A DNA stretch of 64,000 bases, from the NCBI GenBank assembly GCA_029261035.1, contig JAJDCD010000005.1, forward strand, positions 62,001 to 126,000. The letters run 5' to 3'. Position 1 is the stretch's first letter. Every line of letters begins with the position of its first letter. This document shows, in pieces, positions 3,001 to 50,329 of the stretch. The notes beneath the pieces are model-generated. The model did not search any database. It was given only the letters and a program-made list of their open reading frames with translations, and was not told where the DNA came from. The translations under genes and the position numbers were made by a program. This DNA is from Candidatus Omnitrophota bacterium. GTDB lineage: Bacteria > Omnitrophota > Omnitrophia > Omnitrophales > JACROU01.

Positions 3001-6000
3001 CGATTTGCGAGTGACTTTTTGGAACTATTGTTGGTGGACGCAATCAATAAATTAAATGAACGATTAGAGACCTTGGAGAATGTAAATATTCCAGGGTTGA
3101 GAAAAATTATTGATCAATGGGTTTATGCACAGCCGAATCAAACTAAACCCCTTTCTCCAGAGCAGTTGCAAGCGGTTAAAAAGAAACAAGTGGGAGTGTT
3201 GGGGGATAATCAGATACAAAGTATTAAACGTTCTATAACAGCTAAGCATAAAAGACAAGATTGGTTGGCGGAGCTTTTTAATCATTTTCAACAAGGAAGA
3301 AGTAAAACGATACCCCCTTATAATTTTCATTCTGAAAAACTGCCCCGAGTGGTGGACTTTCTCGAACATATTTACAGTAGTGATTTATCAAATTCTTCAT
3401 ATGCATTAAAGTTAAAGAATGCACTATCTGCTTTTAGTAAAAAACCAAATGAAAAAAATTTAAAATTTGTACAGCGTGCTTATCGCCGTTATCGATTGAT
3501 GATGGAGGAGGGACTTGTTCTTGCTTATAGGGACCATCGATTGCAAGAGGCTTACAAGCTATTTTCTGTCAGTGAAGTTGTGAAAGCTGACAAAAAGGGA
3601 TTGCTAAAAAAATGGAAAAAACATGTTTTAAGTCGACATCAGGGAGACAATGGATGGAGTGATTCTCAAAGAGAGTTGCTCGATAATGAAAGTTTGAGAT
3701 TTGATCGACTAATGAATTTGGTGACGCCTGGCTTTTTTATGTTTAAGCGTCCCGTGGGTGATGAGATTGGTTTTCTAGTTTTTGATGATGCGTCCGGATT
3801 ATATAAAATGGGTTTTGCAGAGTTTAATAAAGGGAATGCTTTTTTTCAGGAAAACACGCCTGATCCCACGGATTCTGTTTACCATTCCATATTGTTGGAT
3901 TTGTTGAATTCTGCTTTGGGGTATTCGAGTTCTGGAGAAGCTCAAGAGTCTCCATGGAAAGGACTGGGATTTTTTGAAAATTTAAATGATACGATGTTAA
4001 CTTCCATTCAACGTTTAGCCGATGAAAAAAAGAGAGAAACTCTTGCTCGTCCTTATCCGACATCGGAGAAGGTTTATGATGAGCGTGAAAGAACGATTTT
4101 ACGTATGCCTACCTATATTCGAATAGATGAGGATTCTTCACCTCGTTATCCGCATTATGCGAAAAGTCCTAGTGGGGATGTGTACTACCGAGGGCGCCTA
4201 GGAGATGAGTGGAAGAAACAAAGTCATGTTCAAATACGCCCTAACGATAGGCTGTGGAGGCGATTTACAACGCAGTTGTCAGCAGCTAGAACTATTCGTG
4301 AAAAGTTGGTTGATCCAGATTTGGATGACATACAGCTTTTGTTTGATGATTTGGATGATTTTAATGGAATGCAAAAAAAAGACATTGAGCGTATAGGAAA
4401 AGTGGTAACGGATACTGAGATAAGAACAGCATTTCCGGAAAAGGATAAAAAAAGAACTCGTGTGATTCAAAAAAGAAGAAAGACAGATGTTGATGTAGAA
4501 GGTCAATCTCTTGGGGTTTTGGATGTGGAAGAGTTGGAATATGAATTGAATGAAAAAGTGAGGGATGCTAAATCTATCTTGAACGACTATGCTCGAATTC
4601 ATTTTGATATTAAGGATGCTGTTTCTGAAGAAGATTATCAGAAAAAATGGATTGTTTTATTTAAGCAATGGTATTACCAACAATTAGATAAAGATCCTAC
4701 TCGGAAACGCACTCCTAAAATAGCGTATGTTATTGACGAGCGTCATTTTAATACCTCTATTGCATTAATTCCTGGATTTCCTATTGAAGACTCTGAAGTG
4801 GAAGAATTGCAGAGCTTTGTTTCTGGATTAGCAAATGGAAGCATTGAGGAGGTGATTGGTTTTGAATTTGTTTTTGGGCAAAGGACAGATGCTTTTAGTG
4901 CTTTTCGTGATCGCCTTCAAAATTTGAAAGAATATTTAAGGGAAAAGACGGTTGTTAACTCAGAGCCTCTTTATTGGTTTGGAACAAGCTATTTATTAGA
5001 AATGTTAAGAGGGGGGTCTCTTAAGCTAAATCCTGAACTTTTAGATGTAGAGTTTCAAGACGATTCTGGTAGCCTTGCTAAATCAGAAACCTCAATTCCT
5101 GTAATGACAGCCACAGTAACTCCTGATGGAACGCCTGTGCTATTTAAAACTTATGAGACAGATCGTTTTATTACTGATATTGGACGAGATGGGCAAGAGA
5201 GAAAAATTGTTGATGTGGGTGTTCCAGGTTTTGTGGCTGCGATTCAGCCAGATGGAAAGGTAGATGCTATTCCTACATTGAAGTTACCTCATACAATGAA
5301 AGAAGAAGGGCTTTATGTTTCGAAAACTCGAGAGGATGCCGCAGGAGATCGTTTGAGCAGAAGAGAAGGTATGGGCTATTTAAAATTGAAACAGCCTGCT
5401 GTTTATCAAAACACCTTAGATACATGGGCAGGCCGCATAGGAAGTGGGGAAGATTATTTTTATAATAACCCTGTTACCGAGCTTAGTGACTTATCTATTT
5501 TAACTCGAGCAAATAATGGGCCTTTGGGCGTTGTGATAGGGGTTCAGAAAAGATTTTTTGAACGTTTTAATGTGCATAGAGAAGATGATGGAAGGCTTAT
5601 TCAGTTAGATGAAAAAAATAGTTTGTCTCCTGTTACGACGATAGCAAATGCGTTCATCGGTGACATTAGTTTTTTCTCAAGAAGAGATTATGATTTTTTT
5701 ATGCAAATAGCTTCTTTGTTTGATATCGAAATGCCTAAAGGGGTAACCATTCGTGTTCAAGATGGCGATGTTGTTACAGAACTTTCTTCGAGTAATGGAG
5801 CATCTTTGGGGGCGATAACATCATATCCCTTTGATGTTACGAAATGGCATGATGAGTTGTATAAAGACTTGCGTAGTGAGCTTTACTTTCTAAGTGTTTA
5901 TGATTTGCCTCAGTTTAATATACAGAGAGCTTCTTCTTTGGAAGAGTATAAAAAACAGTGGTTTCAACAATTTAAAACCTGGTATTACGAAAAGTTAAGA

Positions 6001-7866
6001 GATAAAGATTTAATTGCGCCCATTGAAGAATTAGGATTTGATGTCCCTTTGTTGCTTAGACTTATTGATTCACGAAGCCCAAATTATAGTATTGTTTATG
6101 ATTCTGCATTTCCAATTACTACTAATGATTTAAAAGCTGTTGAAGAGGTTGTTCGTCAAGTTCAAGAAAATCGAGATCTGGCTTTTGCTATAGAGGACTT
6201 GCTCAATTATGATAGAAGTGAAGGTGACCTTGTTTCGATTGTAGTACAAAAGGGAAGTCTTCTTAATGAAATTAATAGAATTAGATCTACAGATGAAGTT
6301 GATGCTGTTTTTTGGCAAGGAACAAGTTACTTTTTAGAGATTTTACAATCGAGAGGTCTAGTTCAGCAGGGGATAGGTAGAAGTATGACCGATCAAGTGA
6401 TTGAAGGAGTATATGTTGAAATAGCTCCGGAAAAAGCAGCTAGTTGGAGATTGCATGAAGAACAAGGTGTTGGGTATTTAAAGATTTTTGAGCCAGAGCA
6501 ATTTAAAAAAGCAAAAGCTGCTGCGGATAAAGATAGAGATGAAGGTTTTGGGCGTTCTTTTTACTTGCCATCTGTCACTTCTGCTGATGACTTATCTCCC
6601 ACGACGATAGAGAATCAGGGTGCTTTGGGTGTGGTTATTGGTTTGAGAAAGTCTTTTTTTCAGAGAGGTTGGCAAGGAGATCGAGGGCAATTGTTTGATG
6701 GAGCCAAACCAGTTACGGATATACCTATAGAAGCTATTTCAGAGGTAATTTTTTATTCGGATAAAGACTATGAAACATTTCAGAGAGTATTGAAGCAACA
6801 GCGTGTTGTGATTCCGCCATCCGTAAAACAGCGTATTTCTAGAAATGGAGTATTAGAAGATCTTACTGTTGCAACGGCTGCAAGTTTAGGGAGTGGAGTT
6901 CAATTACGTTTAATAGATTTTTCTGGTACGGATATTTCGCAATTAGAAAAAGAAGGACAGGCTCGTTTAGATCAAATTAATGGTGTGCTGGGGCAGGCAT
7001 TTTTTGGGTTGCAAAGAGATTTAGAAACGTTACCATCGGGTCAAGCTGTTGTGAACCGTATTTTTGAAGAAGATTATTTAAGGGGAATTACGAGTGTTTT
7101 AGGCGATTTAAATCAGATTGTGGATGCAACTTTTCTCTTGGATCAATTGAAAGGTGCTGTAGCGCGTCTTATTGTTATTCCGAATGCATTAGCTTCTGCT
7201 GTGGATTCAACAGTGACTCCTTTATCTGATGAAGCTAGGGTTATTCTTCAAAATCCAGAATTATTTAACGAGTTGTACCAGAGCCAAAAAGGAAATGCTC
7301 TCTTTGCAGATCCTACCAATGTCAATTGGAGTCAATCGTATATTTTAGATGCGTCGTTTTTTCCAAGAGTGGATGACCCTCGTAGAGAACGGGCTGAGTT
7401 GTTTGTGCAACAGTTAATTGCTTCAGGCATCCGAATTGCTGTGCCATATAAGGTGGGGAGCCCGGAAGAAAAGTTTGCATTAGAACTTAGAAAATTGATT
7501 CCTGAAGTTATGCTTGTAGGATATAACGATCGTCCGTTGGGGCAGCGAAAATTTAGAAGTTTAAAGCAGCCGATGGTCATTCTTCCAATGGGTATATCTG
7601 TGAAGTTGAATCGTAGAAGTGATTGGAAAGATAAGGGGGTTGTTGCAGATCCTCAAGCAACCTATCCTTCAATGATGAATTTGGCTGATTTTGTTTCCTT
7701 GATTAAAATTGTTTTGCACTCGGACGCGCTAAAATCGCAGTTAAAGATTGATGATGAAACCCCATTTCCACAGGTCACGATGGAATTTTTAAACTCTCTT
7801 GTTAATTTAATAAATGACCTCGCTAAAACGAAAAAAGCCCAACAGCTGATAGCAAGAGCTGCGTAA
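43..7866 (+). CDS. Giant secreted protein 1 with N-terminal TraB/ChaN-like domain (2607 aa)
   Basis: Residues 1 to about 34 form a signal peptide, so the protein is probably exported. Residues ~60-500 look like a TraB/Tiki/ChaN-type domain: a QDAH motif (His80), a FEG motif shortly after, and a GGFH motif at 455-458 preceded by a hydrophobic strand. The rest has no recognisable enzyme domain. Residues ~1507-1923 and ~1940-2283 are two diverged copies of one module; both contain WYY, GTSY, GYLK and LGVVIG segments. An A-x-S-L-G motif lies at 681-683, 1921-1923 and 2281-2283, the last two closing the duplicated modules. The C-terminal ~170 residues (from 2434) match the end of the giant protein at 16717 and both finish in RAA. 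The ATG at 43 follows GGGGAAG. The family assignment rests on motifs only and the function is unknown. Confidence 0.85.
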   Translation: MGINIKGLYQKLIAVLVVVSFLFSDISLWAQSASAQIQSLPKSTNAMSKGVRIPDTLGSIQDVHWSEGSERFVVLIQDAHAIQDAQSNIQQLIHYFQENYGIDMVAFEGAQGTLDNRLIKTFPDSEIVSKVMNQYLKNAEITGVEMASLSDGGFVQYVGIEDWELYEQNFFSYVHALKNQKRIQNELNVWKQALDSKRKTLYSEDMNRFHNMIYGFYEQKIDLLDLLKYLKEIPSVQNTLTTYTYLNSLIKLMDENEIVNNEEIRSEILSVSNHFYKSHFSKLEKKDQKELNQKLQALNTSSLAPGVFLKWLSDLKDHYRIPVEFSSTLIKTIKVMERFDVMRGSEVFDELNQVILAIEKELALSSDEQEMAALYRKTRFLDSWVRLEITKDEWMKFADQREGYQQLLEALGLEEAFETMLDFYQLALLRDDILFQNLVKQMRKADKNKSMLLLGGFHAQGIKQQLKDSGYSYVSIMPRINDLEGKDVYHKVMRGHLSYQEHISTTIQDAFLKDVAIQLTNHLNPSEYLSKLKQWRDEVIRSLANEGKVSKAKQYTRYIDPLFKNYYDLSQQDQKSNLNKEQILSEVQKVFQKTQEETAHTLWSRFESQLKSFELGLNQLERKDRNDPMQIQNLMETINALEPAALVQLAHPLNPDPSGSSNGLKSYFKGDRLDLSISAKSLGAEEVEFGEILEGFMQLDELMGTATVDQLTNPRFRREVEQLLESESGYFGKIMDMMTDNNTAFPVLMERAQDMLFDPTREEGIRMGMVSVPLAVANNIGKEYGIPGFPDILKGKINSAIQTVMSSFSAMVQSPNRPRSAYLGGRIILLDVPERHEFAVSLRLVIDQVILELKEEYGEDLRQVGNSEAQIQQFKTSLDDLPFYGSHARVYMPNIMPNQASRDPQFSVKNVMRTIRREEGRLLPELLDEGSDLVDQMAEYIAKDRFLSFRRNKLARAATFWTEEEDFARIEGYEEIDEEGPEPGARRFASDFLELLLVDAINKLNERLETLENVNIPGLRKIIDQWVYAQPNQTKPLSPEQLQAVKKKQVGVLGDNQIQSIKRSITAKHKRQDWLAELFNHFQQGRSKTIPPYNFHSEKLPRVVDFLEHIYSSDLSNSSYALKLKNALSAFSKKPNEKNLKFVQRAYRRYRLMMEEGLVLAYRDHRLQEAYKLFSVSEVVKADKKGLLKKWKKHVLSRHQGDNGWSDSQRELLDNESLRFDRLMNLVTPGFFMFKRPVGDEIGFLVFDDASGLYKMGFAEFNKGNAFFQENTPDPTDSVYHSILLDLLNSALGYSSSGEAQESPWKGLGFFENLNDTMLTSIQRLADEKKRETLARPYPTSEKVYDERERTILRMPTYIRIDEDSSPRYPHYAKSPSGDVYYRGRLGDEWKKQSHVQIRPNDRLWRRFTTQLSAARTIREKLVDPDLDDIQLLFDDLDDFNGMQKKDIERIGKVVTDTEIRTAFPEKDKKRTRVIQKRRKTDVDVEGQSLGVLDVEELEYELNEKVRDAKSILNDYARIHFDIKDAVSEEDYQKKWIVLFKQWYYQQLDKDPTRKRTPKIAYVIDERHFNTSIALIPGFPIEDSEVEELQSFVSGLANGSIEEVIGFEFVFGQRTDAFSAFRDRLQNLKEYLREKTVVNSEPLYWFGTSYLLEMLRGGSLKLNPELLDVEFQDDSGSLAKSETSIPVMTATVTPDGTPVLFKTYETDRFITDIGRDGQERKIVDVGVPGFVAAIQPDGKVDAIPTLKLPHTMKEEGLYVSKTREDAAGDRLSRREGMGYLKLKQPAVYQNTLDTWAGRIGSGEDYFYNNPVTELSDLSILTRANNGPLGVVIGVQKRFFERFNVHREDDGRLIQLDEKNSLSPVTTIANAFIGDISFFSRRDYDFFMQIASLFDIEMPKGVTIRVQDGDVVTELSSSNGASLGAITSYPFDVTKWHDELYKDLRSELYFLSVYDLPQFNIQRASSLEEYKKQWFQQFKTWYYEKLRDKDLIAPIEELGFDVPLLLRLIDSRSPNYSIVYDSAFPITTNDLKAVEEVVRQVQENRDLAFAIEDLLNYDRSEGDLVSIVVQKGSLLNEINRIRSTDEVDAVFWQGTSYFLEILQSRGLVQQGIGRSMTDQVIEGVYVEIAPEKAASWRLHEEQGVGYLKIFEPEQFKKAKAAADKDRDEGFGRSFYLPSVTSADDLSPTTIENQGALGVVIGLRKSFFQRGWQGDRGQLFDGAKPVTDIPIEAISEVIFYSDKDYETFQRVLKQQRVVIPPSVKQRISRNGVLEDLTVATAASLGSGVQLRLIDFSGTDISQLEKEGQARLDQINGVLGQAFFGLQRDLETLPSGQAVVNRIFEEDYLRGITSVLGDLNQIVDATFLLDQLKGAVARLIVIPNALASAVDSTVTPLSDEARVILQNPELFNELYQSQKGNALFADPTNVNWSQSYILDASFFPRVDDPRRERAELFVQQLIASGIRIAVPYKVGSPEEKFALELRKLIPEVMLVGYNDRPLGQRKFRSLKQPMVILPMGISVKLNRRSDWKDKGVVADPQATYPSMMNLADFVSLIKIVLHSDALKSQLKIDDETPFPQVTMEFLNSLVNLINDLAKTKKAQQLIARAA

Positions 7867-16716: not shown

Positions 16717-19700
16717 TTGTTTTTTATTAAATTATTCAACCAGTTCGTGTCTTTTGTTCTAATTTTTATTTTGGCTTTCCCATCACCCGGAATGACACAG
16801 TCTGTTTCATCTCTTTTGACTTCTAGTTTAAATTCTCAAGGTTCGCTGATCCATATTTCTTCAAATATTGGAGAGGTGAAAGAAGTTTATAAAGGGGATA
16901 GCCCTTATTTTATTTTGCACATTCAAAATGCTCATGCCAACGAGACAGCGCAAAGAAATGTTGAGGCTATATTAAAGCAAGTTTATCAAAAAGATTTTTA
17001 TCCTTTAATTCAATTAGAAGGTTCTGATGCTCAACTAGATCCAGAAGTTTTCCATTTTTTTCCTAACTCAGAACTTAATATAAGAGTAGCTGATGAAGCA
17101 GTAAGAAGAGGTTTGCTCACAGGAGCAGAACTTTTTGCTCTTACTTTAAATGAGAAAGGATACTCAAATTTAAAGTCTCCAACCCCTTTGATTCAAGGTG
17201 TCGAAGAAATTAAAGCCTATACCCAAAGTTTAAAGCGAATTCAGAGCGGATTAAAACAGAAGAACCAGTTTGAGGCATCTTTGAATAGGGTTCAAACGCA
17301 AATGAACAAAGAACAAAGTTTAGGGTGGAATAAAGAGCTTTTCGAGTTTAGTCGAAAAACACAAAATTTTAAATCTAATCCAAATTCAATTCTTAAGTAT
17401 ATTCACTATTTAAATAAATTGATGCAAAAACATCTCAATATAGATCTTTCTCACTCCTTTTATCAAAAACAATATCCTTATGTTTGCCGTATTTTAAAAT
17501 TGCAGGAGTTAGAGATTTCCCAGTTTCAACTTTCAGCAAAACAAGAAGTGGATCGTTTGGAGAAAGATATCCAGGGTTGGAATCAATCAGAAGAGTCTGT
17601 GAAGCAAGGGTTGGTACAAGGGCTGCAAGCACTTAAAGCGAATTTAGATTCTCATCCAGAAGGGAATATCCGATCGTTTTTCGAAATACTTTATTTAGAG
17701 GCAGAAAAAAATAAGTTTAGTTGGATGAGTTTTGAAGCTTTTAAGAAATGGGCTGCTTTTTTAATTATTCAACAAGAGGTTAAGGGAGTTGATTTGTACC
17801 AAGAGCTAGAGCAGCTTACCAGCCAACTATATAAACGATTCGTAAAGACTAAAGAAGAACAGTATTTGCTAGACAGATCTCGTCTTTGGGAGTTTATCGC
17901 TAAAATATTACGTTTTGAACTCACTTCCCAAGATTGGAAAGAATACCTTCTATTAAAAGAATCTTTTTCATTATTAGTGGGCGAATCGGAACTCCAAGAA
18001 GGCGTTGATAATGCGGTTGAGTTTTACCAGCTTTCAGAAGCGAGAAATAAAGTTTTATTTCAAAACACATTAGAAAACTTAAAAAAACATAATAAAGAAA
18101 AAACCGTTTTAGTAACGGGGGGATTTCACACCTCTGGGATAACGCGCTTGATGCGGGAAGAAGGAATTTCCTACGTGGTGGTTTCTCCAAAAATGGGAAG
18201 CGATTATGAAGTAACTGGGTATCAACAACAACTTTTAAATTTGAATGAAGAATTGGATGCATCTACTCTAGAACTTCCTTTAAGAACTATGAGAGATATT
18301 GATGATTTAAATAGACATCATTTAGATGTGAAAGCTCAACTAAATATGGAATTAGATTTGGTCTTACAGTTTTTTCCAGAATGGGTAAAGGGAGAAAGTG
18401 ATTTAGAATTAATTGCCAAGCGCTTAAGGGATGTTATTGAACGTCATCCTCATTTAAATAGAGTTGGGTACAAAATTCTTGTTGAAGAGGGTCGTATTCG
18501 CGTCCTAAACCCAAATGGAGAAGAGTATCACCGCTTGTCTAAAAAAGACCTAAATGTTTCAACGTCAATGAATGCCGCTAGTCTTGGGGCTCCAATTTTT
18601 ATGGATATGGAAAGTTTTGCTTCTGACTTGATTTACCTTTATGAACGGTTAGATCCGAAACGTTTTGATAGTGAAGCGGTAAAGCTGCAGAATAATAGCA
18701 AGGAAATATTAGAAGTAAAATCTAAAGTATTTGATGTTTTAGAACGTTTGGCTACAAAGCGTGTGATTCATGTTTCTGTAAAAATAGCTTTAGAGAAATT
18801 GTTTAACCCTAAAAAAAAGGGAGGTAAAAAAGGGAAGAAGATAAAATTAATAAGAAATTCAAAATATCGATTTTCTGAAGTTCAAATCTTATTGCTCTTA
18901 AGAGAGCTTTTGCTTCACGATGGAGAAGAACTTTCATCATTGCCAAAACATCCTCAATATGAAGATATTCATCTTGTTTATAGTTTTCACGAAAACCATG
19001 CTTCTACTAGAGATTTTGAAATTATTGCTGGTGAGCTAGATAAAGTTGTACAAAAAGCACATCAAGAAGAAAGACCTCTTGTGGTGATATCGGATGTAGA
19101 TTATATGGGCTATGATGAGTTGATTGATTATTTGACAGGAAAAGAAAATGGCATTAAACAACAATTAAATGGAAAGTATAAATTTGGTCTCGGAAAAATT
19201 CAGAGCTTATCGGCTACTTCGGTAAAAGCGGTTTTTGCCCGTATATCAGCGATGTTAAAAGAAGGGTATGATGAACCGACGATTATTACGAGTTTGATGA
19301 ATAAAGATGAAGTGTTTCAAAAATTACTGATAGAGTTGGTGGGAAAACATTGGGAGCATGAGAGAAAGAAAGCTAAGGATATTCGAGAGTTTGTCAAAAA
19401 AGAACCTGAAACTCCATTTCATAAAGCTTATGTGGAATGGTTATATGAGCTCGACAAACAAATTCGCGCTAAAAAGTTAAAAGTTAAAGCGTTTTCTCAT
19501 TTATTAGAAACTACACCAACGGGTTCTATGTCAGAAAAAAGAGTCATGTTGAATATCTTATTTATGCGTGCGCTTCAAGCTTTGAAACGGGGAGATATGG
19601 AAAAGGTAAACTATTTTATTAAGGGTTTTAACCGATTTATGATTGATCTTACTCGAGTAAGAAAAGAAGCTTTAGCTTTGCAGATACAAGATATTAAAAG

Positions 19701-22700
19701 GAGCAAGCCCAATGCCATTATTTTGGCTGTGCGAGAGCATTCTATGAAAGGTGTAGAGAAGAAAATGTCTGAAGCGGGTTATGTTGTGGATGTGTCAGAA
19801 ATGGACGAGGGCTATCGTGATTTAGTTTCAGAACCCCTTTATCAATTACATGATCCAGAACGTGATGATATTGCATTTTCTGAGCAAGAGACGGTGGAAG
19901 AAAGACGTTATTTTAGAGATTTTTTTGCATTTAATGTGATTGCTTATATCAAACGATTAGATGAGTTTAAAGATATTTTTAATCGTTTAGACACGGAAGT
20001 GGTATCTCTTATTTATAAAAATTTGGTGGAGCTCTTATCGGCCCCTGAAATAGAAGCGTTAATTACTGAAGTAATGCCATTTGTTACGGAATCTCTTAGC
20101 ATTACGAAGCCAGAGCTTATTCGAAAAAAAGCGGAAGAAGTTTTTTATCAATATGCTGTTGAGAAGAAAGGTTTTGATATCTTGACGGTTCTTGAAATGG
20201 CAAAAACCTTAGCGAAGCTTGAGTATACATCCTCTACTTATGTTGCTGGATTGGATCAGGAAGTTGTTGAACGAATTCGGAGGGTGAGGGAGGTTGCTTC
20301 TAGTGAGGAAAGGGAAGTCGATAATGCAGCTATTGAAACAGACGAATCTGATGGGGAGCAGGTAAACCTTGTTTTGGAACAGCTTGAATCTAATATTACG
20401 CAATATAAGATTGAAGGAGAGTTGGCACCTTTAGTCTCTAAGGCAACATCTATATTTGAAGATAGAACTCTTTTCCTAGAGACGCTTAATCGCTATGCAG
20501 AGACTCGGGATTTATCTTTCTTGCAACAACGAGCTAAAGAATTAGAAGAATCAGGTTTTTATTCTTTGGTTAAAGGAAACCTTAATGACATTATTATCTT
20601 TGCACGAGATCAGGGATTAGTTTCTAAAGAGGTTTTTTCACAATGGACAAAGTTTTTTCCAAAGAAACTTAAAAAGAAAAAAAACAAAAAGAAAAAAATT
20701 ATTTCTACAGCAAAATACAAATACACAGATGCAGAATTGTTGCTTTTGTTTCAAGATATGTTTCTTGGAGAAATAGCCACGGCGCAACTTCCTAAAAGTT
20801 CACGATTTCAAGATATTCATATGATTTACGGTTCTTTTGATACTTATATGAGAAAAAAAGATTTTGAAGCGATGGAACCTGCTTTGAACGCAGCTATTCG
20901 GAAAGCAGAAGCTGAGAAACGACCAGTGATTTATATTAAAGAAGAACCTCAGTTAAATGTAGGTGATTTTTGGAAGTACCTTGGAATGTTGGAATATGTT
21001 CATAATAAGAAAGGGGCCGATTATTATCGATTTGTTGTAGGTGAGGGAGAATCGGCGCAAACCTTGTCTAAAATAGAAAATATTCCTGCAAATCAGATCC
21101 AAAATTTGCTTGTAGAAATAAGCCAATGGCAAAGAGAAGGAGTGGATGCTCTTACGATGTGGGGACGTGTAATTTTTCGAAGGGAGAAATTTGAAAAGTT
21201 AGTGGAAGAAATTTTTAAACTTGATTATCAATTGAGAATTAAAGGGGGCAGGAAATTAGAAAACTATAATATAGAGAATTTTCCTCCTTTTCAAAAAAGA
21301 ATGTATCAGTGGTTGCAAGACTTAAATCAACGATTTGAAGTAGGTGAATTAAATATCCCTCATTTTTATTTTGAGCAAGATGATTTAATCGATTATGAAG
21401 GCCGAATGCAGTTTTTTAGATTTCAGATCTCTCAAATGAGATTGATGCGGGCTCTTTCTGAAGGGGAGGAAAAAGTTCTCCAGCATTTACAAGAGCAAGC
21501 CATTATGTGGAAAAAGGTGCTTGAGGCAAGGAGACATTCTTTGATAAATCAAATTAAACATTTAAAAGCAAAGAATCCAAGAGCGACGATTATTGTTGTT
21601 CGAGACCATATTTTTCAAGGAGTGCATGAGCCTTTACTTCAAAATGGTTTCGATGTGCATGTTCATCGATACCTTGATTCTTTAAAGTCAGATACTTTGT
21701 TAACGCGTGTATATCAAAATACAAAAAATTCAACAAGGGTAAGTGAAGAGGATCAATTACGTCACCTTGTTGCTTTTAGACTTTTAGATCGATTGAAAGA
21801 TGATGAAGCGTATAAGGAGTATCTAAATACATTAGAAAATCAACGTATGGGCAGAATCTATGAATATTTCTTTAAGAGTTTTACAAGGGGGCAGCTGAAG
21901 TTCCTTTTTGATGAGATTGTTAAGCCTAACTCCTTCGGAAAGAATGAATCTGAATCTAACTCAATTTTAACTGAGGGAATTTTTGATTTTGCTAAACTTA
22001 CTTTTGATGTTTCTGTTGAACGTCTTCGTGCTATTGCGGATACAGAGGAAGAATTGGAGTTGATGGGTGCCCAAACAGTTGTGTCCAAATTTGAAGATTG
22101 GGAAGCTATAGCTCTGTTTCAGCGAAACTTAAAGGAGCAGTATGACTTAGTACAAAAAGAAACTCAAAAACCAGAAGAACCTTTAGAAGATGTGTTTGCA
22201 AGTAGCTCTGATGATGCTGTAGTTATAGATGAAGATGCGATTCCAGAAGCTTCTGTTCCGTTGTTACCTGAACCTACTATCGAAGAACCTAAAAATGAGA
22301 TCCCTGAAAATAATGCTGAAGGTGTGGCCCAAGAAGAGGTTTTTTTGGCAAGTTCTGCAGAACCTGAAGTAGAATCTCTTTCTAGTGAAGTTGTCGAAGT
22401 GCAGGTTAATGCAGTGGGTGAGTCAGCTCGAGCGTCTGAAGAAATTGCAACTCCAGAAATCGTTCTACCCACAAAGAGAAATGCGGAAGAATTATTTAAG
22501 TTTGTTGCTGAATTATCTGAGCTAAACCCAGACACTAAAAAAATAGTTGTGGAATTATTTTTTTATGAGCTAGGGAGACTTCTTTCTTTTCAATATCTAT
22601 CAGGAAAAGGTGTTGGTGAAGAGATGCTTAAACATATAGAAGTGAACTTTGATAATGGCTCCGTTCAGTGGTCTGTGATGGAAGTTGCTCAAATAGATAG

Positions 22701-23640
22701 TGACCCTACACTCTTCTCAAAAGTTTTGAGTCAAGTTTATGAACTTGCTCAATCCTTTGATGGAGTTGAAGAAAAAGAACGCTATTTCTTTTTCTTTATC
22801 GAAGGAATTAAAACTACTTTTGGAGAGGACTTAAAAGGTTATAAAGCATTTTTGCGAACTTTTTATGGGCCTTTGAAAACAGTAACGAGTAAAGCAGCTG
22901 CAATTAGTAATTTGATGAGAAAGTTTGTGCTGAGAGTAAGGTCTGTAGAGGTTTCAGGAGATGCAGATGCGCCGATGGACATCATTAAGAATTATGTACT
23001 TTCAGAGGCGAAGTCATTAGGAGAAGGAGATTTGTTGAATTCCGCGAAGGCTTCTCGAGTCTTTGCCTATGAAATTCTGGGGTTTGAATTTTATGATCCA
23101 GGGAATGAGATGGATTACATTAAAATTATGGAAGAGTGGGGGTATGGAGCTTTAGCTTATAATTTAGATCAGAGAGTCCTTATTTTGGAACCTTCTTTTG
23201 TAAAAGCGCAATGGTCTCAGATTCAGATTTTAATGGGGTTGGGAGTGAAGTTTGTGGTTTATGGTGAAGAAGAGAGCTTAACTCCAGAATTGCTTCAATG
23301 GATTCGAGAGATTGAAATGATTTCTTTTATACGTAAGCAAGATGGGGCTTTATTACACCAACTTAAAATAGAATTGCGTAGGAATGTGAATGTAGAGCAG
23401 GTTGTATTTGTAGGTCGAGAAGCGATTGCACGCGATGATATCTTTCAGTTTGTTTATCCTGATCCCTTTGAATTAGCCCCTGAAACCCCGGTTCTTTTAC
23501 AAGCGTTGTACCTTTTTAAAAACAGAGACTTTTTTAATGATTGGATCGAAAACAACCAATTGGTATTTCGTTTGGAATTATTAACCCAGCAGCTCATGGA
23601 TGGACAACAAGTTCTCTTAGCTCTTAAACGAGCGGCTTAG
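16717..23640 (+). CDS. Giant secreted protein 2 with TraB/ChaN-like domain and two degenerate copies (2307 aa)
   Basis: The start is TTG at 16717 with AGGAAGGGG 8 bases upstream; a signal peptide ends near residue 27. Residues ~50-490 are the TraB/ChaN-like domain, with QNAH (His73), a downstream LEG, and GGFH at 468-471. Residues ~690-1020 and ~1310-1645 are tandem copies of another module: each opens with a Lys-rich patch (FNPKKK.. and FPKKLKKKK..), then L-L-L-L helices and a DIH strand. Each ends with an I-I-x-x-V-R-[ED]-H strand that looks like a worn GGFH motif. A Glu/Pro/Ser-rich low-complexity stretch spans ~1815-1920. A-x-S-L-G occurs at 622-624 and 2100-2102. The C-terminal ~150 residues match the end of the giant protein at 43 and finish in RAA. 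The function is unknown. Confidence 0.85.
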   Translation: MFFIKLFNQFVSFVLIFILAFPSPGMTQSVSSLLTSSLNSQGSLIHISSNIGEVKEVYKGDSPYFILHIQNAHANETAQRNVEAILKQVYQKDFYPLIQLEGSDAQLDPEVFHFFPNSELNIRVADEAVRRGLLTGAELFALTLNEKGYSNLKSPTPLIQGVEEIKAYTQSLKRIQSGLKQKNQFEASLNRVQTQMNKEQSLGWNKELFEFSRKTQNFKSNPNSILKYIHYLNKLMQKHLNIDLSHSFYQKQYPYVCRILKLQELEISQFQLSAKQEVDRLEKDIQGWNQSEESVKQGLVQGLQALKANLDSHPEGNIRSFFEILYLEAEKNKFSWMSFEAFKKWAAFLIIQQEVKGVDLYQELEQLTSQLYKRFVKTKEEQYLLDRSRLWEFIAKILRFELTSQDWKEYLLLKESFSLLVGESELQEGVDNAVEFYQLSEARNKVLFQNTLENLKKHNKEKTVLVTGGFHTSGITRLMREEGISYVVVSPKMGSDYEVTGYQQQLLNLNEELDASTLELPLRTMRDIDDLNRHHLDVKAQLNMELDLVLQFFPEWVKGESDLELIAKRLRDVIERHPHLNRVGYKILVEEGRIRVLNPNGEEYHRLSKKDLNVSTSMNAASLGAPIFMDMESFASDLIYLYERLDPKRFDSEAVKLQNNSKEILEVKSKVFDVLERLATKRVIHVSVKIALEKLFNPKKKGGKKGKKIKLIRNSKYRFSEVQILLLLRELLLHDGEELSSLPKHPQYEDIHLVYSFHENHASTRDFEIIAGELDKVVQKAHQEERPLVVISDVDYMGYDELIDYLTGKENGIKQQLNGKYKFGLGKIQSLSATSVKAVFARISAMLKEGYDEPTIITSLMNKDEVFQKLLIELVGKHWEHERKKAKDIREFVKKEPETPFHKAYVEWLYELDKQIRAKKLKVKAFSHLLETTPTGSMSEKRVMLNILFMRALQALKRGDMEKVNYFIKGFNRFMIDLTRVRKEALALQIQDIKRSKPNAIILAVREHSMKGVEKKMSEAGYVVDVSEMDEGYRDLVSEPLYQLHDPERDDIAFSEQETVEERRYFRDFFAFNVIAYIKRLDEFKDIFNRLDTEVVSLIYKNLVELLSAPEIEALITEVMPFVTESLSITKPELIRKKAEEVFYQYAVEKKGFDILTVLEMAKTLAKLEYTSSTYVAGLDQEVVERIRRVREVASSEEREVDNAAIETDESDGEQVNLVLEQLESNITQYKIEGELAPLVSKATSIFEDRTLFLETLNRYAETRDLSFLQQRAKELEESGFYSLVKGNLNDIIIFARDQGLVSKEVFSQWTKFFPKKLKKKKNKKKKIISTAKYKYTDAELLLLFQDMFLGEIATAQLPKSSRFQDIHMIYGSFDTYMRKKDFEAMEPALNAAIRKAEAEKRPVIYIKEEPQLNVGDFWKYLGMLEYVHNKKGADYYRFVVGEGESAQTLSKIENIPANQIQNLLVEISQWQREGVDALTMWGRVIFRREKFEKLVEEIFKLDYQLRIKGGRKLENYNIENFPPFQKRMYQWLQDLNQRFEVGELNIPHFYFEQDDLIDYEGRMQFFRFQISQMRLMRALSEGEEKVLQHLQEQAIMWKKVLEARRHSLINQIKHLKAKNPRATIIVVRDHIFQGVHEPLLQNGFDVHVHRYLDSLKSDTLLTRVYQNTKNSTRVSEEDQLRHLVAFRLLDRLKDDEAYKEYLNTLENQRMGRIYEYFFKSFTRGQLKFLFDEIVKPNSFGKNESESNSILTEGIFDFAKLTFDVSVERLRAIADTEEELELMGAQTVVSKFEDWEAIALFQRNLKEQYDLVQKETQKPEEPLEDVFASSSDDAVVIDEDAIPEASVPLLPEPTIEEPKNEIPENNAEGVAQEEVFLASSAEPEVESLSSEVVEVQVNAVGESARASEEIATPEIVLPTKRNAEELFKFVAELSELNPDTKKIVVELFFYELGRLLSFQYLSGKGVGEEMLKHIEVNFDNGSVQWSVMEVAQIDSDPTLFSKVLSQVYELAQSFDGVEEKERYFFFFIEGIKTTFGEDLKGYKAFLRTFYGPLKTVTSKAAAISNLMRKFVLRVRSVEVSGDADAPMDIIKNYVLSEAKSLGEGDLLNSAKASRVFAYEILGFEFYDPGNEMDYIKIMEEWGYGALAYNLDQRVLILEPSFVKAQWSQIQILMGLGVKFVVYGEEESLTPELLQWIREIEMISFIRKQDGALLHQLKIELRRNVNVEQVVFVGREAIARDDIFQFVYPDPFELAPETPVLLQALYLFKNRDFFNDWIENNQLVFRLELLTQQLMDGQQVLLALKRAA

Positions 23641-23734: not shown

Positions 23735-25735
23735 ATGAGCAGATTGTCACTTCGCAAAAAACTCTTTCTTCTTCTTTCAGGCTCTCGGCTTGTAATGCCG
23801 TTGGTGTTTGCTTGTGTTGTGGGTGTCCTTACAGGGTTTGCTGTTGTTGGTTTTGTGAACCTAATTGATTTTCTTCAAGAGTTCTTTTTTACGGGTGGTG
23901 AGAAGGCTCTTTCTTTCCTAGGTAAGTATTACATTGTTTTTATTCCTGTTATTGGTGCGTTGTTGGTTGGCCCTATCGTTACATTTATTTCTCCTGAAGC
24001 AAAAGGTCATGGTGTTCCCGAGGTAATGAAAGCTGTTGCTTTGAGGGGAGGGCGTATTCGTCCTATTGTTGTTTTGGGGAAAGCGTTAGCTTCGGCTATT
24101 GCGATTGGTTCAGGTGCTTCAGCGGGTCGTGAAGGTCCTATTGTTCAGGTGGGCTCTGCTTTGGGGTCTAGTTTTGGGCAGTGGTTTAAGTTGAGCGAAT
24201 CTCGAATTAAAAACTTGGTGGCTTGTGGTGCTGCGGCAGGAATTTCAGGTGTTTTTAATGCGCCCATTGCCGGGGTGATGTTTTCGATGGAAGTTATTTT
24301 GAGGGATTTCGGGGCTAGAGCATTGAGTACCGTTGTGGTTGCTTCTGTTTCATCCAGTATTATTAGTAATATTTATTTAGGAGGATCTCCAGCGTTTGTT
24401 GCTCCAGTCTATAGTTTGTGGAGTCCTTGGGAAACGGTTCTTTATGTGGGGTTGGGGGTAATCTCGGCTTTCACAGCAGTTCTTTTTGTTTTTGTCTTGT
24501 CTAAAACTGAAGATATTTTTGAGAAATGGAAATTTGTAGATTGGTTGAAACCTGCAGTTGGTGGGTTGCTATTGGGTGTTATTGGCCTTTATTTTCCTCA
24601 AGTATTTGGTACGGGTTTACATACGATTGAAGAGGCTCTTCATGGTCGTATGGAAATTATATTATTATTTGCTCTTGTTTTAATGAAGATTATCGCGACG
24701 TCTGTGACATTGGGTTCCGGAAGCTCTGGAGGTGTATTTGCACCAGCGCTTTTTATTGGAGCTGTTTTAGGGGGAGGTTTTGGCCGTTTGTTTTATGAGA
24801 AAATGCCTTTTCCTGTCGCCCCTCCTGGGGCTTATGCTTTGGTGGGAATGGCCAGTGTTTTTGCGGGTGCGGCTCATGCGCCTGTAACGGCTATATTGAT
24901 TGTTTTTGAAATGACTCGAGACTACCGTATGATTTTGCCGATTATGGTTGCTGTGGTGGTTTCTACATCTATATCACAGATGATTAGCAGAGAGTCTATT
25001 TATACTATTAAATTGAAGCGCAAGGGCATTGATATTGGAACGTTTGAAGAAGCAAAAGTTTTTGGTGCGATACAAGTACGAGATGCAATGAGTGAGAATT
25101 TTAAAACGGTACCTCATGATATGCCTTCGAAAGAACTTTTTGCCCAGATGTCCCATGATAAGAATAAAACATTTTTTGTCGTAAACCACAAAGAAGAATT
25201 GGTGGGGATTGTAAAGCCTGAAGAAATGCAAGAAATCTTATTTGAAAAAAACATTCAGCTGTTGATAGCGGATGATGTTGCTATTCCTATTGCTGAGTAT
25301 TGTTATCCGGATGAATCTTTGGGAGAAGCGACCCGAGTGATGACTGTGAACGAAATTACTATTCTGCCGGTAATGGACCCAACACAACCTAAAAAAATAA
25401 TAGGTGTTTTGAAATCACAAAATATTTTTCGTACCTATGCAAATATTTCCGGGAAAAGGGAAGATCTCTTGGGGCGTTTGGAACAACAGGATGTTTCTTC
25501 GAAAGATACTTCTCATGTTCAATTTAAGGTTTCGAAAGATTCGAGTATTGTTGGTAAAAATATTAAAGATTTGGGATTGCCTCAAGGGGTTGTTTTAACT
25601 TCGATTCATCGCAACCATCATTTAGTTGTTCCTCAGGGGGATACGGTGGTATTCGCAAAGGATAAGATTTGGGCTGTTATTAAGCCGGAGACGGAGGCTC
25701 TTTTTAAGGAGTGGTTGAAGGCGAATAAAATTTAA
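23735..25735 (+). CDS. ClC-family chloride channel/antiporter with CBS and TrkA-C domains
   Basis: The membrane part (residues ~1-420) has the ClC signatures GHGVPEV, GREGP (gating Glu133), FNAPIAGVMFSMEV and GSGSSGGVFAPALF. It is followed by a paired CBS module (~445-580) and a C-terminal TrkA-C/RCK-C-like domain (~590-660). The position equal to the internal proton glutamate of E. coli ClC-ec1 (Glu203) is Val187, as in ClC channels. Its product would move chloride or a similar anion, perhaps without proton coupling. The two cytoplasmic domains suggest nucleotide or ligand control. The first structured repeat element begins 38 bp after the stop. Confidence 0.92.
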   Translation: MSRLSLRKKLFLLLSGSRLVMPLVFACVVGVLTGFAVVGFVNLIDFLQEFFFTGGEKALSFLGKYYIVFIPVIGALLVGPIVTFISPEAKGHGVPEVMKAVALRGGRIRPIVVLGKALASAIAIGSGASAGREGPIVQVGSALGSSFGQWFKLSESRIKNLVACGAAAGISGVFNAPIAGVMFSMEVILRDFGARALSTVVVASVSSSIISNIYLGGSPAFVAPVYSLWSPWETVLYVGLGVISAFTAVLFVFVLSKTEDIFEKWKFVDWLKPAVGGLLLGVIGLYFPQVFGTGLHTIEEALHGRMEIILLFALVLMKIIATSVTLGSGSSGGVFAPALFIGAVLGGGFGRLFYEKMPFPVAPPGAYALVGMASVFAGAAHAPVTAILIVFEMTRDYRMILPIMVAVVVSTSISQMISRESIYTIKLKRKGIDIGTFEEAKVFGAIQVRDAMSENFKTVPHDMPSKELFAQMSHDKNKTFFVVNHKEELVGIVKPEEMQEILFEKNIQLLIADDVAIPIAEYCYPDESLGEATRVMTVNEITILPVMDPTQPKKIIGVLKSQNIFRTYANISGKREDLLGRLEQQDVSSKDTSHVQFKVSKDSSIVGKNIKDLGLPQGVVLTSIHRNHHLVVPQGDTVVFAKDKIWAVIKPETEALFKEWLKANKI

Positions 25736-25772: not shown

Positions 25773-26045
25773 GAGAGCTTGGGTATCTGCTCGGCGCTCA
25801 GACAGCACAAAAATTGAAAGGCGATTTTTGTGAACTCGCGGCGGACAGATACCCAGGCTCTCATCTTAGAAAAGTTTAGTGCGTGTTAGGGATGTTGAAA
25901 CAATAGGGGCATCGAGCCCATATTGTTTCTTGGGTTTAATGTGTTTCGTTATTGTGTAAATAACGAAACGCTTTTTTTTATTATGGGAATTAATACTAAC
26001 TGCTGGGATAAAGGCGTAGAAGGTGTGAGTTGTTGGTTTAGGATT
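25773..26045 (+). ncRNA. Structured repeat element, copy 1
   Basis: This 346-bp gene-free gap holds three hairpins in order. Hairpin 1 (25773-25862) has a 17-bp outer stem (GAGAGCTTGGGTATCTG with its complement, one G-T pair), a conserved internal loop (CGGCGCTCAGACAG facing AACTCGCGGCG) and an inner CACAAAAAT stem. Hairpin 2 (25897-25929) pairs GAAACAA with TTGTTTC around ATCGA. Hairpin 3 (25941-25971) pairs GTTTCGTTATT with AATAACGAAAC and is followed by T8. A conserved tail (GGGATAAAGGC ... GGTTTAGGATT) ends near 26045. Copies are at 34507 and 45418. It is unidentified; it could be an ncRNA, a 3'-UTR module or a non-autonomous mobile element. Confidence 0.75.
25941..25979 (+). terminator. 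Rho-independent terminator inside structured element copy 1
   Basis: A stem of 11 perfect pairs (GTTTCGTTATT with AATAACGAAAC), extended by a G-T and a G-C pair, is followed by eight T. It would end transcripts that read through the upstream ClC gene and the first two hairpins. Confidence 0.65.
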
Positions 26046-33224: not shown

Positions 33225-34484
33225 ATGAAAGAACGGATTGCTTTGAAGAGAGGGTACAGAACTCCTTTTGTTAAAAAAGATGCAGAATTTGCTCGGTTAA
33301 ATACGGTAGATTTATCTTGTCTTTTAGTGAATGACATTTTGAAAAAAATAGATTTTAATGCGTCGCTCATTCAGCATGTCGTGTGGGGGATGGTTGTTCC
33401 TGATGCTAATATCTACTCCGTTGCACGTGAAGTGGTTTTAGGTTCAGAGCTGGATAATCGAGTTGAAGCTTATTCGGTTTCTAGGGCTTGCGCAACTTCT
33501 CTACAGGCAACAACAAATGCGGTTAGTTTCTATCATTCTTTTCCAGAAGAAAAATCAATATCTTTAGTTGGTGGTGTGGAATCATTCTCGTCTGTGAGGC
33601 CTGTATTAACAGACCAAGCATCTAACTATTTTAAATCGCTAGCCGTGCGGGCTGGGTTTGGGACTAAATTACTCAATGCCTTAAAGATTCCAATTACTCG
33701 ACTCTTTCCTGTGCCGCCAGCAGCAAGAGAGTATTCAACTGGACTCACCATGGGAGAGCATTGTGAGTTGATGGTTAAAGAATTTAAAATTGAACGAAAG
33801 CGTCAAGATGCATTTGCATTGGCGAGCCATCAAAATGCGGTAAAAGCTAGAGAAGTGATTGAGCCTCAGATCGTTGATGTATTGGGAGTTAAAAAGGATA
33901 CGTTGATTCGAGATACAACTTCTATGGAAGCTTTGTCTGGTTTGAGACCAGCCTTTGATTCGAAAACAGGAAGCGTTACTGCGGGGAACGCTTCTCCTTA
34001 TACGGATGGTGCTGCAGCTCTTTTTGTTATTTCACCTGCGTTGGAATCTGAAGTGAAGCCCGATGCTTTTATGAGTGATTTTGAGTATGTTGGATTTAAT
34101 CCTGCGGATGGTCTTTTGATGGGACCTGGAAAAGCAATGTTACGTATATTACAAAGACAAAATTTGCGATGGAATGATTTGGATTATATCGAAGTTCATG
34201 AGGCATTTGCAGGACAAGTTCTTTGTAATGTGGAAGCGGTAAATTCCTCTGATTATAGAACTAATCAATATGGTGTTTCATATGATGCGGGTAAATTAGA
34301 TGAGTTGACAATTAACCCTTATGGGTCTTCTATTTCTTATGGACATCCATTTGGTGCTACGGGAGCACGAATGGTTTCTCAGGCGATTGCGTATCTTGAG
34401 AAGAATAATAAGAGTAGGGCTTTGGTTTCGGCTTGTACGGCAGGGGGATTGGCGGGGGCGTGTTTAATTACGCGTGAAGGTTAG
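33225..34484 (+). CDS. Acetyl-CoA acyltransferase (thiolase), FadI-like
   Basis: This 419-aa thiolase has nucleophile Cys89 (SRACATSLQA), His in EVHEAFAGQ, the YGHPFGATGARM loop and the C-terminal SACTAGG catalytic Cys. The long insertion around 150-175 and the sequence style are like FadI or the trifunctional-protein beta subunit, which cleave 3-ketoacyl-CoA in beta-oxidation. No FadJ-like partner is adjacent; an acyl-CoA dehydrogenase is 1.2 kb downstream. GGGGAGAGAAAG precedes the ATG. Confidence 0.92.
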   Translation: MKERIALKRGYRTPFVKKDAEFARLNTVDLSCLLVNDILKKIDFNASLIQHVVWGMVVPDANIYSVAREVVLGSELDNRVEAYSVSRACATSLQATTNAVSFYHSFPEEKSISLVGGVESFSSVRPVLTDQASNYFKSLAVRAGFGTKLLNALKIPITRLFPVPPAAREYSTGLTMGEHCELMVKEFKIERKRQDAFALASHQNAVKAREVIEPQIVDVLGVKKDTLIRDTTSMEALSGLRPAFDSKTGSVTAGNASPYTDGAAALFVISPALESEVKPDAFMSDFEYVGFNPADGLLMGPGKAMLRILQRQNLRWNDLDYIEVHEAFAGQVLCNVEAVNSSDYRTNQYGVSYDAGKLDELTINPYGSSISYGHPFGATGARMVSQAIAYLEKNNKSRALVSACTAGGLAGACLITREG

Positions 34485-34506
34485 GTTGGTATAAGAGTTG
34501 TTTTGG

Positions 34507-34774
34507 AGAGCCTGGGTAGTTTTCCGGCGCTCAGACAGCACAAAAGTAAAATGCACTTTTGTGAACTCGCGGCGGAAAACTACCCAGGCTCTTTTCGAGC
34601 AAACACTTGTGGGCTGTTGGGGGTTGAAACAAGATGGGCGTCGAGCCCATATTGTTTCTTGGGTTTATTGTGTTTCGTTATTGTGTAAATAACGAAACGC
34701 GTTTTTGTTGTTAGGTGTTTATAAGAAATCAGGGATAAAGGCATTTGTTGCGTGGAATGGCTGGTTTAGGATTT
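34507..34774 (+). ncRNA. Structured repeat element, copy 2
   Basis: This occupies the 331-bp gene-free gap after the thiolase. Hairpin 1 (34507-34592) has a perfect 19-bp outer stem (AGAGCCTGGGTAGTTTTCC and its complement), the same internal loop as copy 1, and a CAAAAGT/ACTTTTG-type inner stem. Hairpin 2 (34626-34658) pairs GAAACAA with TTGTTTC around GTCGA. Hairpin 3 (34672-34698) is identical to copy 1 and is followed by GTTTTTG. The tail GGGATAAAGGC ... GGTTTAGGATT is kept. Confidence 0.75.
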
Positions 34775-44414: not shown

Positions 44415-45320
44415 TTGTCTACAGCAGTTTCAGAACCGAAGAAAACAGTTAAAAATGACAGGGTTACGAGTATATCAGACTTGTTTCCAGCTAAGACGGA
44501 AAAGGAAATAAAACAACAGAAAATGGGCGCATGGGTTCGCGCTATTTGGATGATTTCAGCACATTTAGGTTGTATTGCTGGCTTCTTTTTCTTTTCGTGG
44601 AAAGCGGTTTTTGTAGGAGTTTTTATCTATTGGATTACAGGTGGTTTGGGTATTTGCTTAGGATTTCATCGTTTATTAACACATCGTAGTTTCCAGTGTC
44701 CTAAGTGGTTTGAGTATTTCTTGACCGTGTGCGGCATTTTAGCTCTTCAGGGAAGTCAGGTTTATTGGGTCGCATCTCATAGAGCACATCATCTTTATTC
44801 AGATCAAGAGGGAGATCCTCATAGTCCGCGTAAGGGTTTTTGGTGGTCTCATTGCATGTGGCTTTTTGATACTAAATGGCTTTCAACCGATGATTTATCT
44901 GCACGATTTGCCGGAGATTTATTAAAAGATCCAGGCCAACGTTTTATTGAGAAATTCCAATTGGTTCCTATTGTTTTATTAGGCATGGGATTGATTGCTC
45001 TTGGCTGGGAATACTTTGTTTGGGGTTTTGTAATTCGAATGGTTGTTTGTTATCACGGAACTTGGTTTGTGAACTCAGCTTCTCATATATGGGGTTATCA
45101 AAACTATGATTCTGGAGATGACTCAAAGAACTTGTGGTGGGTTGCGTTACTTAGTTTTGGTGAAGGGTGGCATAACAATCATCATGCTTTTCAATCTTCT
45201 GCGCGTCATGGGTTAAGATGGTGGGAAGTAGATACGACATTTATCACGATTAAGTTTTTGAGCTTGTTGGGGCTTGCTAAGAATGTGCAGGTTCCTAAGG
45301 AAGTTGGAGCTACTTCGTAA
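44415..45320 (+). CDS. Acyl-CoA/acyl-lipid delta-9-type fatty acid desaturase
   Basis: This 301-aa membrane di-iron enzyme has the three histidine boxes HRLLTH, HRAHH and HNNHH, and four predicted membrane segments. It inserts a cis double bond into saturated acyl chains with O2, so the cell meets oxygen. The start is TTG at 44415 with GAGAGGAGA six bases upstream. A terminator-like hairpin and the third structured element follow. Confidence 0.93.
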   Translation: MSTAVSEPKKTVKNDRVTSISDLFPAKTEKEIKQQKMGAWVRAIWMISAHLGCIAGFFFFSWKAVFVGVFIYWITGGLGICLGFHRLLTHRSFQCPKWFEYFLTVCGILALQGSQVYWVASHRAHHLYSDQEGDPHSPRKGFWWSHCMWLFDTKWLSTDDLSARFAGDLLKDPGQRFIEKFQLVPIVLLGMGLIALGWEYFVWGFVIRMVVCYHGTWFVNSASHIWGYQNYDSGDDSKNLWWVALLSFGEGWHNNHHAFQSSARHGLRWWEVDTTFITIKFLSLLGLAKNVQVPKEVGATS

Positions 45321-45417: not shown

Positions 45418-45685
45418 GAGAGCCTGGGAAATTTCTCGGCGCTCAGACATGCTCGGACTTTGTCCTGCGCAACTCGCGGCGAGAAATTTCCCAGGCTCTC
45501 ATCAGTGATAAGTCTTTGGTTGGGTTGAGGGGGTTGAAACAAGATGGGCATCGAGCCCCTATTGTTTCTAGGGTTTAATGTGTTTCGTTATTGGGTAAAT
45601 AACGAAACGCTTATTTGTTGTTAGTGATTTTAAGAGGTGATTGGGATAAAGGCGTATGGGCAATGATGGGTTGGTTTAGGATTTA
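45418..45685 (+). ncRNA. Structured repeat element, copy 3
   Basis: It lies in the 432-bp gap between the desaturase (+) and the AI-2E family gene (-). Hairpin 1 (45418-45500) has a perfect 21-bp outer stem that reads GAGAGCCTGGGAAATTTCTC plus G, again closing CGGCGCTCAGACA and AACTCGCGGCG. Its inner stem is different (GGAC-TTT-GTCC). Hairpin 2 (45536-45568) and hairpin 3 (45582-45608) match copies 1 and 2, except that the loop of hairpin 3 reads GGGTA. The tail GGGATAAAGGCG ... GGTTTAGGATT is kept. Confidence 0.75.
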
Positions 45686-50279: not shown

Positions 50280-50329
50280 ACCGGCCCTATTTAAAGTTTA
50301 GTTTAATGATGAGAAAGGAAGTTATTTTT

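Follow-up and report, generated by a model that had tools for sequence, protein, structure and literature searches.

What kind of element keeps the two arms of a hairpin matched in every copy while leaving their sequence almost free is the question raised by a window of DNA from a Candidatus Omnitrophota bacterium, the window being the whole stretch of 64,000 nucleotides that was analysed (contig JAJDCD010000005.1 of assembly GCA_029261035.1, positions 62,001 to 126,000; its genome is termed the source genome below). Three co-directional copies of a unit of ~270 bp were identified in it (25773-26045, 34506-34773 and 45418-45683, plus strand), each consisting, in the same order, of hairpin 1, a linker of ~35 nt, hairpin 2, hairpin 3 and a tail, GGGATAAAGGC...GGTTTAGGATT. 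Hairpin 1 lies at 25773-25862, 34506-34593 and 45418-45500, ahead of the two further hairpins and the tail, which confirms the place and order given in a preliminary description of the window; that description had proposed a candidate new structured RNA, with folded single-stranded DNA as the alternative. It is this alternative that was found to fit better. With moderate confidence, hairpin 1 is taken to represent a new family of dispersed, non-coding extragenic hairpins, similar to repetitive extragenic palindromic (REP) sequences, whose spread and turnover take place at the level of DNA.

Hairpin 1, as delimited by folding and covariation, is built of a 5' arm, the core box GGCGCTCAGACA, an inner hairpin, the core box AACTCGCGGC and a 3' arm. 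In copy 1 these lie at 25773-25792, 25793-25804, 25805-25832, 25833-25842 and 25843-25862, respectively; in copy 2 at 34506-34525, 34526-34537, 34538-34563, 34564-34573 and 34574-34593; and in copy 3 at 45418-45437, 45438-45449, 45450-45470, 45471-45480 and 45481-45500. Folding z-scores of -9.0, -11.3 and -9.2 were obtained for copies 1 to 3 (200 dinucleotide shuffles each). A covariance model built on hairpin 1 (R1) identified ~57 distinct places in the source genome (those matched on both strands being counted once), and a DNA search gave 42 matches, so that the element first described as occurring three times does so in the window only. Across the source genome the arms, of roughly 20 bp, share one register, with pairs at a fixed offset from the core, and show a mean identity between copies of ~44%. 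The inner hairpins were of the kinds ACAAAA...TTTTGT, one with a GTGACTGTCACC palindrome, and TGCTCG...CTGCG, the last being that of copy 3 of the window. The palindrome GTGACTGTCACC...GGTGACTGTCAC was seen in the inner-hairpin loop of many copies (L016, L022, L025, L029 and others of the source genome) and also elsewhere in this genome, and may be a separate REP-type repeat.

The preliminary description had held that pairing is conserved without conservation of sequence, around a nearly fixed internal loop, and covariation in a larger alignment had been set beforehand as a test. Both observations were borne out, and the covariation survived in sets of 28 copies from the source genome and 30 copies from across phyla. 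Among the 28, 93.6% of cells were paired, compared to 70.2% when shuffled, with a covariation score of 0.623 vs 0.165; among the 30, the corresponding values were 93.7% vs 56.5% and 0.928 vs 0.197. Sliding the register lowered pairing to 44-55% in every case in the source genome, and every slid register across the two sets was ~40-55% paired. When the 5' arm was given the 3' arm of another copy, Watson-Crick pairing fell from 94.8% to 42.5% in the source genome, and stood at 39.0% after the swap in the cross-phylum set. Arms are therefore ~94% Watson-Crick paired within a copy, though nearly unrelated between copies. The start GAGAGC[CT]TGGG, reported as common to every copy, is confined to the three copies of the window and is not a feature of the family.

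The hairpin core, GGCGCTCRRACA facing AACTCGCGGC, was found in multiple copies in other Omnitrophota, Coriobacteriales, Eisenbacteria, Gemmatimonadetes and Planctomycetes, with the Coriobacteriales carriers being Olsenella, Thermophilibacter and Eggerthella-type genomes. With an exact pattern of both boxes and one genome per species, the matches listed were mostly from Atopobiaceae (Olsenella, Thermophilibacter, Atopobium), the other groups among them being Omnitrophota, Eisenbacteria, Gemmatimonadetes and Planctomycetota; close copies are carried by named Omnitrophota contigs. The invariant columns of core boxes A1 and A2 are GGCGCTC..ACA and AACTCGCGGC, and hairpin 1, 83-90 nt long in the window, measures 80-130 nt elsewhere. 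A general covariance model for cross-phylum search (R2) identified 4 to 28 copies per genome in 11 genomes other than the source genome (28, 18, 18, 16 and 13, with the rest at 4-9). Positive genomes numbered 41 of 120 for Coriobacteriales, 18 of 285 for Omnitrophota under strict filters, and 3 of 246 in a planctomycete-centred set. Eggerthella-type genomes possess a variant core, AGTCGCTCRRACAGTCCTCG...CTGCGGAACTCGCTTGGT, of which 14 true copies were found in the closed genome G166, with no matches to a reversed control pattern. G166 (3,632,260 bases) is presumably Eggerthella lenta DSM 2243, and the label Eggerthella-type rests on this assumption throughout.

Contigs of Stenotrophomonas and Acidovorax and three others also showed the core pattern; these were dismissed as chance matches because their arms are unpaired. 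Searches of viral contigs, phages and plasmids gave no matches, and spread by phage or plasmid was rejected on this ground. The earlier view that the hairpin belongs to no named family agrees with a search of Rfam 15, in which neither the window nor ten foreign loci gave a match at the gathering score, the best weak match scoring 21.7 bits vs 50. A literature search turned up no paper that links Olsenella or Eggerthella to repeats of this kind. Two further features of carrier genomes were observed. A CGAGAAG/CTTCTCG word recurs in intergenic DNA of Atopobiaceae, both inside hairpin arms and alone (L187, L177, L132, L100 and others). In the Omnitrophota genome Bin_214 (G100), the arms of L104, L120, L179, L219 and L220 are near-identical (GTCCGTCAAAG...) with common mismatches, unlike in other genomes, perhaps due to recent expansion of one copy.

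Covariation of this kind would ordinarily be read as a mark of RNA, and the mismatches that the arms tolerate were therefore counted at fixed pair positions. In total, 41 G-U and 65 A-C pairs were found in arms of both sets, so that the strong covariation is not accompanied by the G-U tolerance of a structured RNA. Within source-genome arms the two were equally rare (12 G-U and 11 A-C of 656 cells), and in non-source arms 29 G-U vs 54 A-C were counted of 1728 cells (binomial P 0.008, the copies not being independent). The stems of hairpin 2 likewise gave no G-U excess (11 G-U, 15 A-C). As a control, 19 tRNAs within the loci under study yielded 24 G-U and 0 A-C, in a small set obtained with a tRNA finder that favours paired stems. 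An alternative source-genome count of 32 G-U vs 10 A-C was set aside, as stems in that count had been extended through G-U. From the missing G-U preference in arms and hairpin 2, set against the tRNA control, it follows that the pairing is guarded in the DNA itself, or by copying between the arms, to a greater extent than through reading of an RNA. The proposal of a structured RNA thus stands as to structure and covariation and falters on arms that avoid G-U as much as A-C. It is further weakened by the occurrence of both orientations in Atopobiaceae, by inverted pairs, by nesting and by gain and loss at orthologous loci.

The manner in which the arms change was examined by comparing similar copies. 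Among source-genome copies differing at no more than 3 pair positions, 22 double vs 14 single changes were found, and about half the changes were double among non-source copies of the same similarity. Changes in matched pairs are thus found even where copies have separated recently. At orthologous loci (matched by upstream gene), arms were either kept or wholly replaced at comparable synonymous divergence, as in L205/L136 (d3 0.10, arm 0.44) and L204/L136 (d3 0.16, arm 0.08). A rate of arm evolution far above neutral was rejected, since the divergence of arms overlaps that of synonymous sites and does not behave like a clock. L271 and L280 share the same core and inner hairpin, with both arms altered together, including a paired 2-nt indel, and arms and inner hairpins were found to be exchanged between copies as modules (L011/L018, L226/L070). 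Arms appear to travel with the element, because the paralogues L009 and L029 have common arms with compensated differences; that the arms arose when the element inserted into the loop of a pre-existing hairpin is accordingly unlikely.

Presence and absence at an orthologous site were seen at the glmS-acpS locus, where four genomes carry the hairpin (G166, G173, G193, G213), two retain it in decayed form (G177, G185) and three lack it (G139, G201, G126). At L265 one element is nested in the core of another, and at L294 three concentric nested layers were read from the sequence. The motif ACCTG lies 5' of 16 of 37 Eggerthella-type copies, compared to 14% of background windows; it is a possible boundary motif, and no duplication was seen with it.

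With respect to genes, 47 of 54 source-genome copies follow a co-directional gene, starting ~20 nt past the stop codon (mostly 6-37 nt; ORF (open reading frame) calls were crude). A position close behind a stop codon was also found for 23 of 34 copies in Eggerthella-type genomes and 48 of 97 in other genomes, where ORF calls in GC-rich DNA are noisy; subject to the same noise, most remaining copies outside the source genome adjoin the start of a divergent gene. In Atopobiaceae, inverted pairs with 15-100 bp between the members are frequent; the first member follows a stop codon, and the other precedes the gene that comes next. In these genomes copies occur in both orientations to genes, and antisense copies beside start codons are common according to the same noisy calls. 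An enrichment of inverted repeats behind stop codons is a general feature of bacteria (PMC13155455). A transposase between inverted copies in Eisenbacteria G105 was considered and rejected, the spans holding ordinary genes (purA, purE, purH and nadE, as read from translations).

The features observed, namely a fixed asymmetric internal-loop core across phyla, arms carried by the element, multiple copies, post-stop placement, inverted pairs, nesting, and gain and loss, are those on which a mobile-like reading at the DNA level is favoured over a role as RNA in the 3' untranslated region (3'-UTR), and the two may coexist. What is retained would be a folded DNA hairpin, as single strand or cruciform, with a DNA-processing protein reading it through the core loop and the arms serving as a sequence-free handle. 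Template switching at replication makes and repairs perfect stems and yields multibase paired changes (PMC8794818); it probably helps to hold the arms matched, and because of it covariation alone is no proof of selection. A narrower version is rather doubtful, in which hairpin 1 would be a new class of mobile element, travelling as a folded hairpin of DNA and spread over several phyla, its core read by a putative recombinase and its arms, free in sequence, rewritten as a matched pair, and would have settled behind genes.

Several points weigh against spread as DNA. The search for a cognate enzyme, which covered Y1 transposase only, found none, and neither target-site duplications nor precise excision were seen. 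The placement of 47 of 54 source-genome copies in sense orientation just past a stop codon is predicted by an RNA role and would not be required of a neutral insertion. Template switching yields double changes without mobility (PMC8794818), and at most source-genome loci the nearest relatives are too distant for an empty-site comparison.

The same placement makes a structured RNA of the 3'-UTR a real, if not a probable, possibility. Such an RNA would be transcribed with the upstream gene and bound at its internal loop by a protein or nuclease, controlling stability of the mRNA 3' end, termination or translation, in the manner of those E. coli REPs that, at no more than 15 nt from a stop codon, lower translation (PMC12306157). 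Short stop-to-hairpin distances, usual also in Eggerthella-type genomes and Atopobiaceae, the terminator-like hairpin 3 with its T run and the conservation of an asymmetric internal loop across phyla are consistent with this role, but the arms and hairpin 2 stems show no G-U preference, antisense copies by start codons are common in Atopobiaceae (as far as the noisy ORF calls go), the minus strand of hairpin 1 folds about equally well in two of the three window copies, and the tail is conserved beyond the terminator-like hairpin. Mutational upkeep, with template switching (PMC8794818) and arm-to-arm gene conversion keeping long palindromes perfect, would make covariation a mutational footprint of elements that do little or nothing for the cell. 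The lack of G-U intermediates in paired changes and the compensated indels of L271/L280 speak for it; it is nevertheless unlikely, as it leaves the near-invariant cross-phylum core boxes, the copy number and the post-stop placement unexplained.

The DNA-level reading invites comparison with known extragenic repeats. Hairpin 1 shares with REPs of the GTAG and CGTC families and with bacterial interspersed mosaic elements (BIMEs) a dispersed, multicopy, extragenic and palindromic nature and a location mostly 3' of coding regions, near stop codons and often in inverted pairs (PMC3733652, PMC12306157). It differs in its length of 80-130 nt with an internal-loop core, REPs being palindromes of 20-40 bp, in arms without conserved sequence, and in a core common to several phyla. 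That it is a REP/BIME family mobilised by REP-associated tyrosine transposases (RAYTs) is very improbable. The genomic niche is the same (PMC3733652) and Y1 transposase domains occur in many Omnitrophota, but no GTAG or CGTC end tag was seen in the hairpin flank consensus of four groups, and dependence on RAYTs was rejected, PF01797 being absent from 8 of 18 positive genomes (including the closed G166, G173 and G193) and common in hairpin-free ones. CGTC REPs are likewise without a dedicated RAYT (PMC3733652).

There is equally little to recommend attC sites of integron type, the targets of the tyrosine integrase IntI, or their relics. These too are folded hairpins behind ORFs in which structure outweighs sequence, with conserved unpaired positions and variable stems and terminal structure, and their bottom strands function as single-stranded DNA (PMC6393395), but the core boxes of hairpin 1 are not a complementary GTTRRRY/RYYYAAC pair, and its copies are dispersed singly behind housekeeping genes instead of standing in cassette arrays. 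Intrinsic terminators resemble hairpin 1 in lying shortly after stop codons, and hairpin 3 of the source genome also in its T run; hairpin 1 differs from them in its arms of 17-30 bp, its fixed internal loop and the lack of a T run behind it. The iron-responsive element and the selenocysteine insertion sequence (SECIS) are protein-read 3'-UTR hairpins with variable stems around a fixed internal loop, as in hairpin 1, whose stems differ in having no G-U preference, in occurring in both gene orientations in some lineages and in having no common gene function. We file hairpin 1 as a new family among the extragenic palindromic elements, taken broadly, and outside REP and attC.

A hairpin that seems not to have been filed before, with a single fixed core, is present in many copies in bacteria as unlike as Omnitrophota and gut Coriobacteriales. 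If maintained at the DNA level, it would be a strong natural case of covariation not meaning RNA, would call for caution where RNAs are discovered by covariation, and would point to a new hairpin-reading protein; if at the RNA level, dozens of genes in each genome would carry a 3'-UTR element common to several phyla. With hosts in culture, both readings can be tested.

In the source genome, hairpin 1 would have been built into a longer unit as its 5' part, followed by hairpin 2, the terminator-like hairpin 3 and the tail, and because of this junction its copies there would also form structured transcript 3' ends. Hairpin 2 (loop CATCGAG fixed, stem free) was present with most source-genome copies, and hairpin 3 and the tail with roughly half; none of the three was seen in those foreign copies that were looked at. 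The two further hairpins and fixed tail first described are thus not common to all copies, and we read them as additions in the source lineage. At L017 of the source genome, the core and part of one arm are lost, with hairpins 2 and 3 still there. A second terminator-like palindrome, GTATCGTCACATGTGTGACGAT, recurs 3' of several source-genome copies (L038, L042, L023, L025 and others).

In copy 1 of the window, hairpin 2 lies at 25897-25929, with a stem that differs from those of the other copies, and hairpin 3 (GTTTCGTTATT...AATAACGAAAC, 25943-25969) is followed by a T-rich run up to 25981; hairpin 3 with its T8 scored as an intrinsic terminator, and hairpin 1 of this copy, with no T run after its stem, did not. 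The conserved tail of this copy (GGGATAAAGGCG...GGTTTAGGATT) lies downstream of hairpin 3, at 26004-26045. Hairpins 2 and 3 and the tail were found at 34626-34658, 34672-34698 and 34732-34773 in copy 2, and at 45536-45568, 45582-45608 and 45642-45683 in copy 3, all on the plus strand. The genes 5' of the three copies, also on the plus strand, encode a CLC chloride channel with CBS and TrkA_C domains (23735-25735), a thiolase (33225-34484) and a fatty acid desaturase (44415-45320), with stop codons 37, 21 and 97 nt before the hairpin, respectively, and given these products no common pathway is visible. Downstream of copy 3 lies a convergent gene for an AI-2E transporter on the minus strand.

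Elsewhere in the window, ORFs of 2607 aa (43-7866) and 2307 aa (16717-23640) and a third region (59625 onward) share the repeat TTCAAGATGCTCATG, near 255, 16908 and 59625, which suggests a family of giant proteins as judged from sequence. Lastly, an in-frame repeat of GAAGAAGC.../GCTCCAAAAGC units was observed at 50339-50704, inside an ORF of 171 aa (50306-50821) with a tail rich in Ala, Glu, Lys and Pro.
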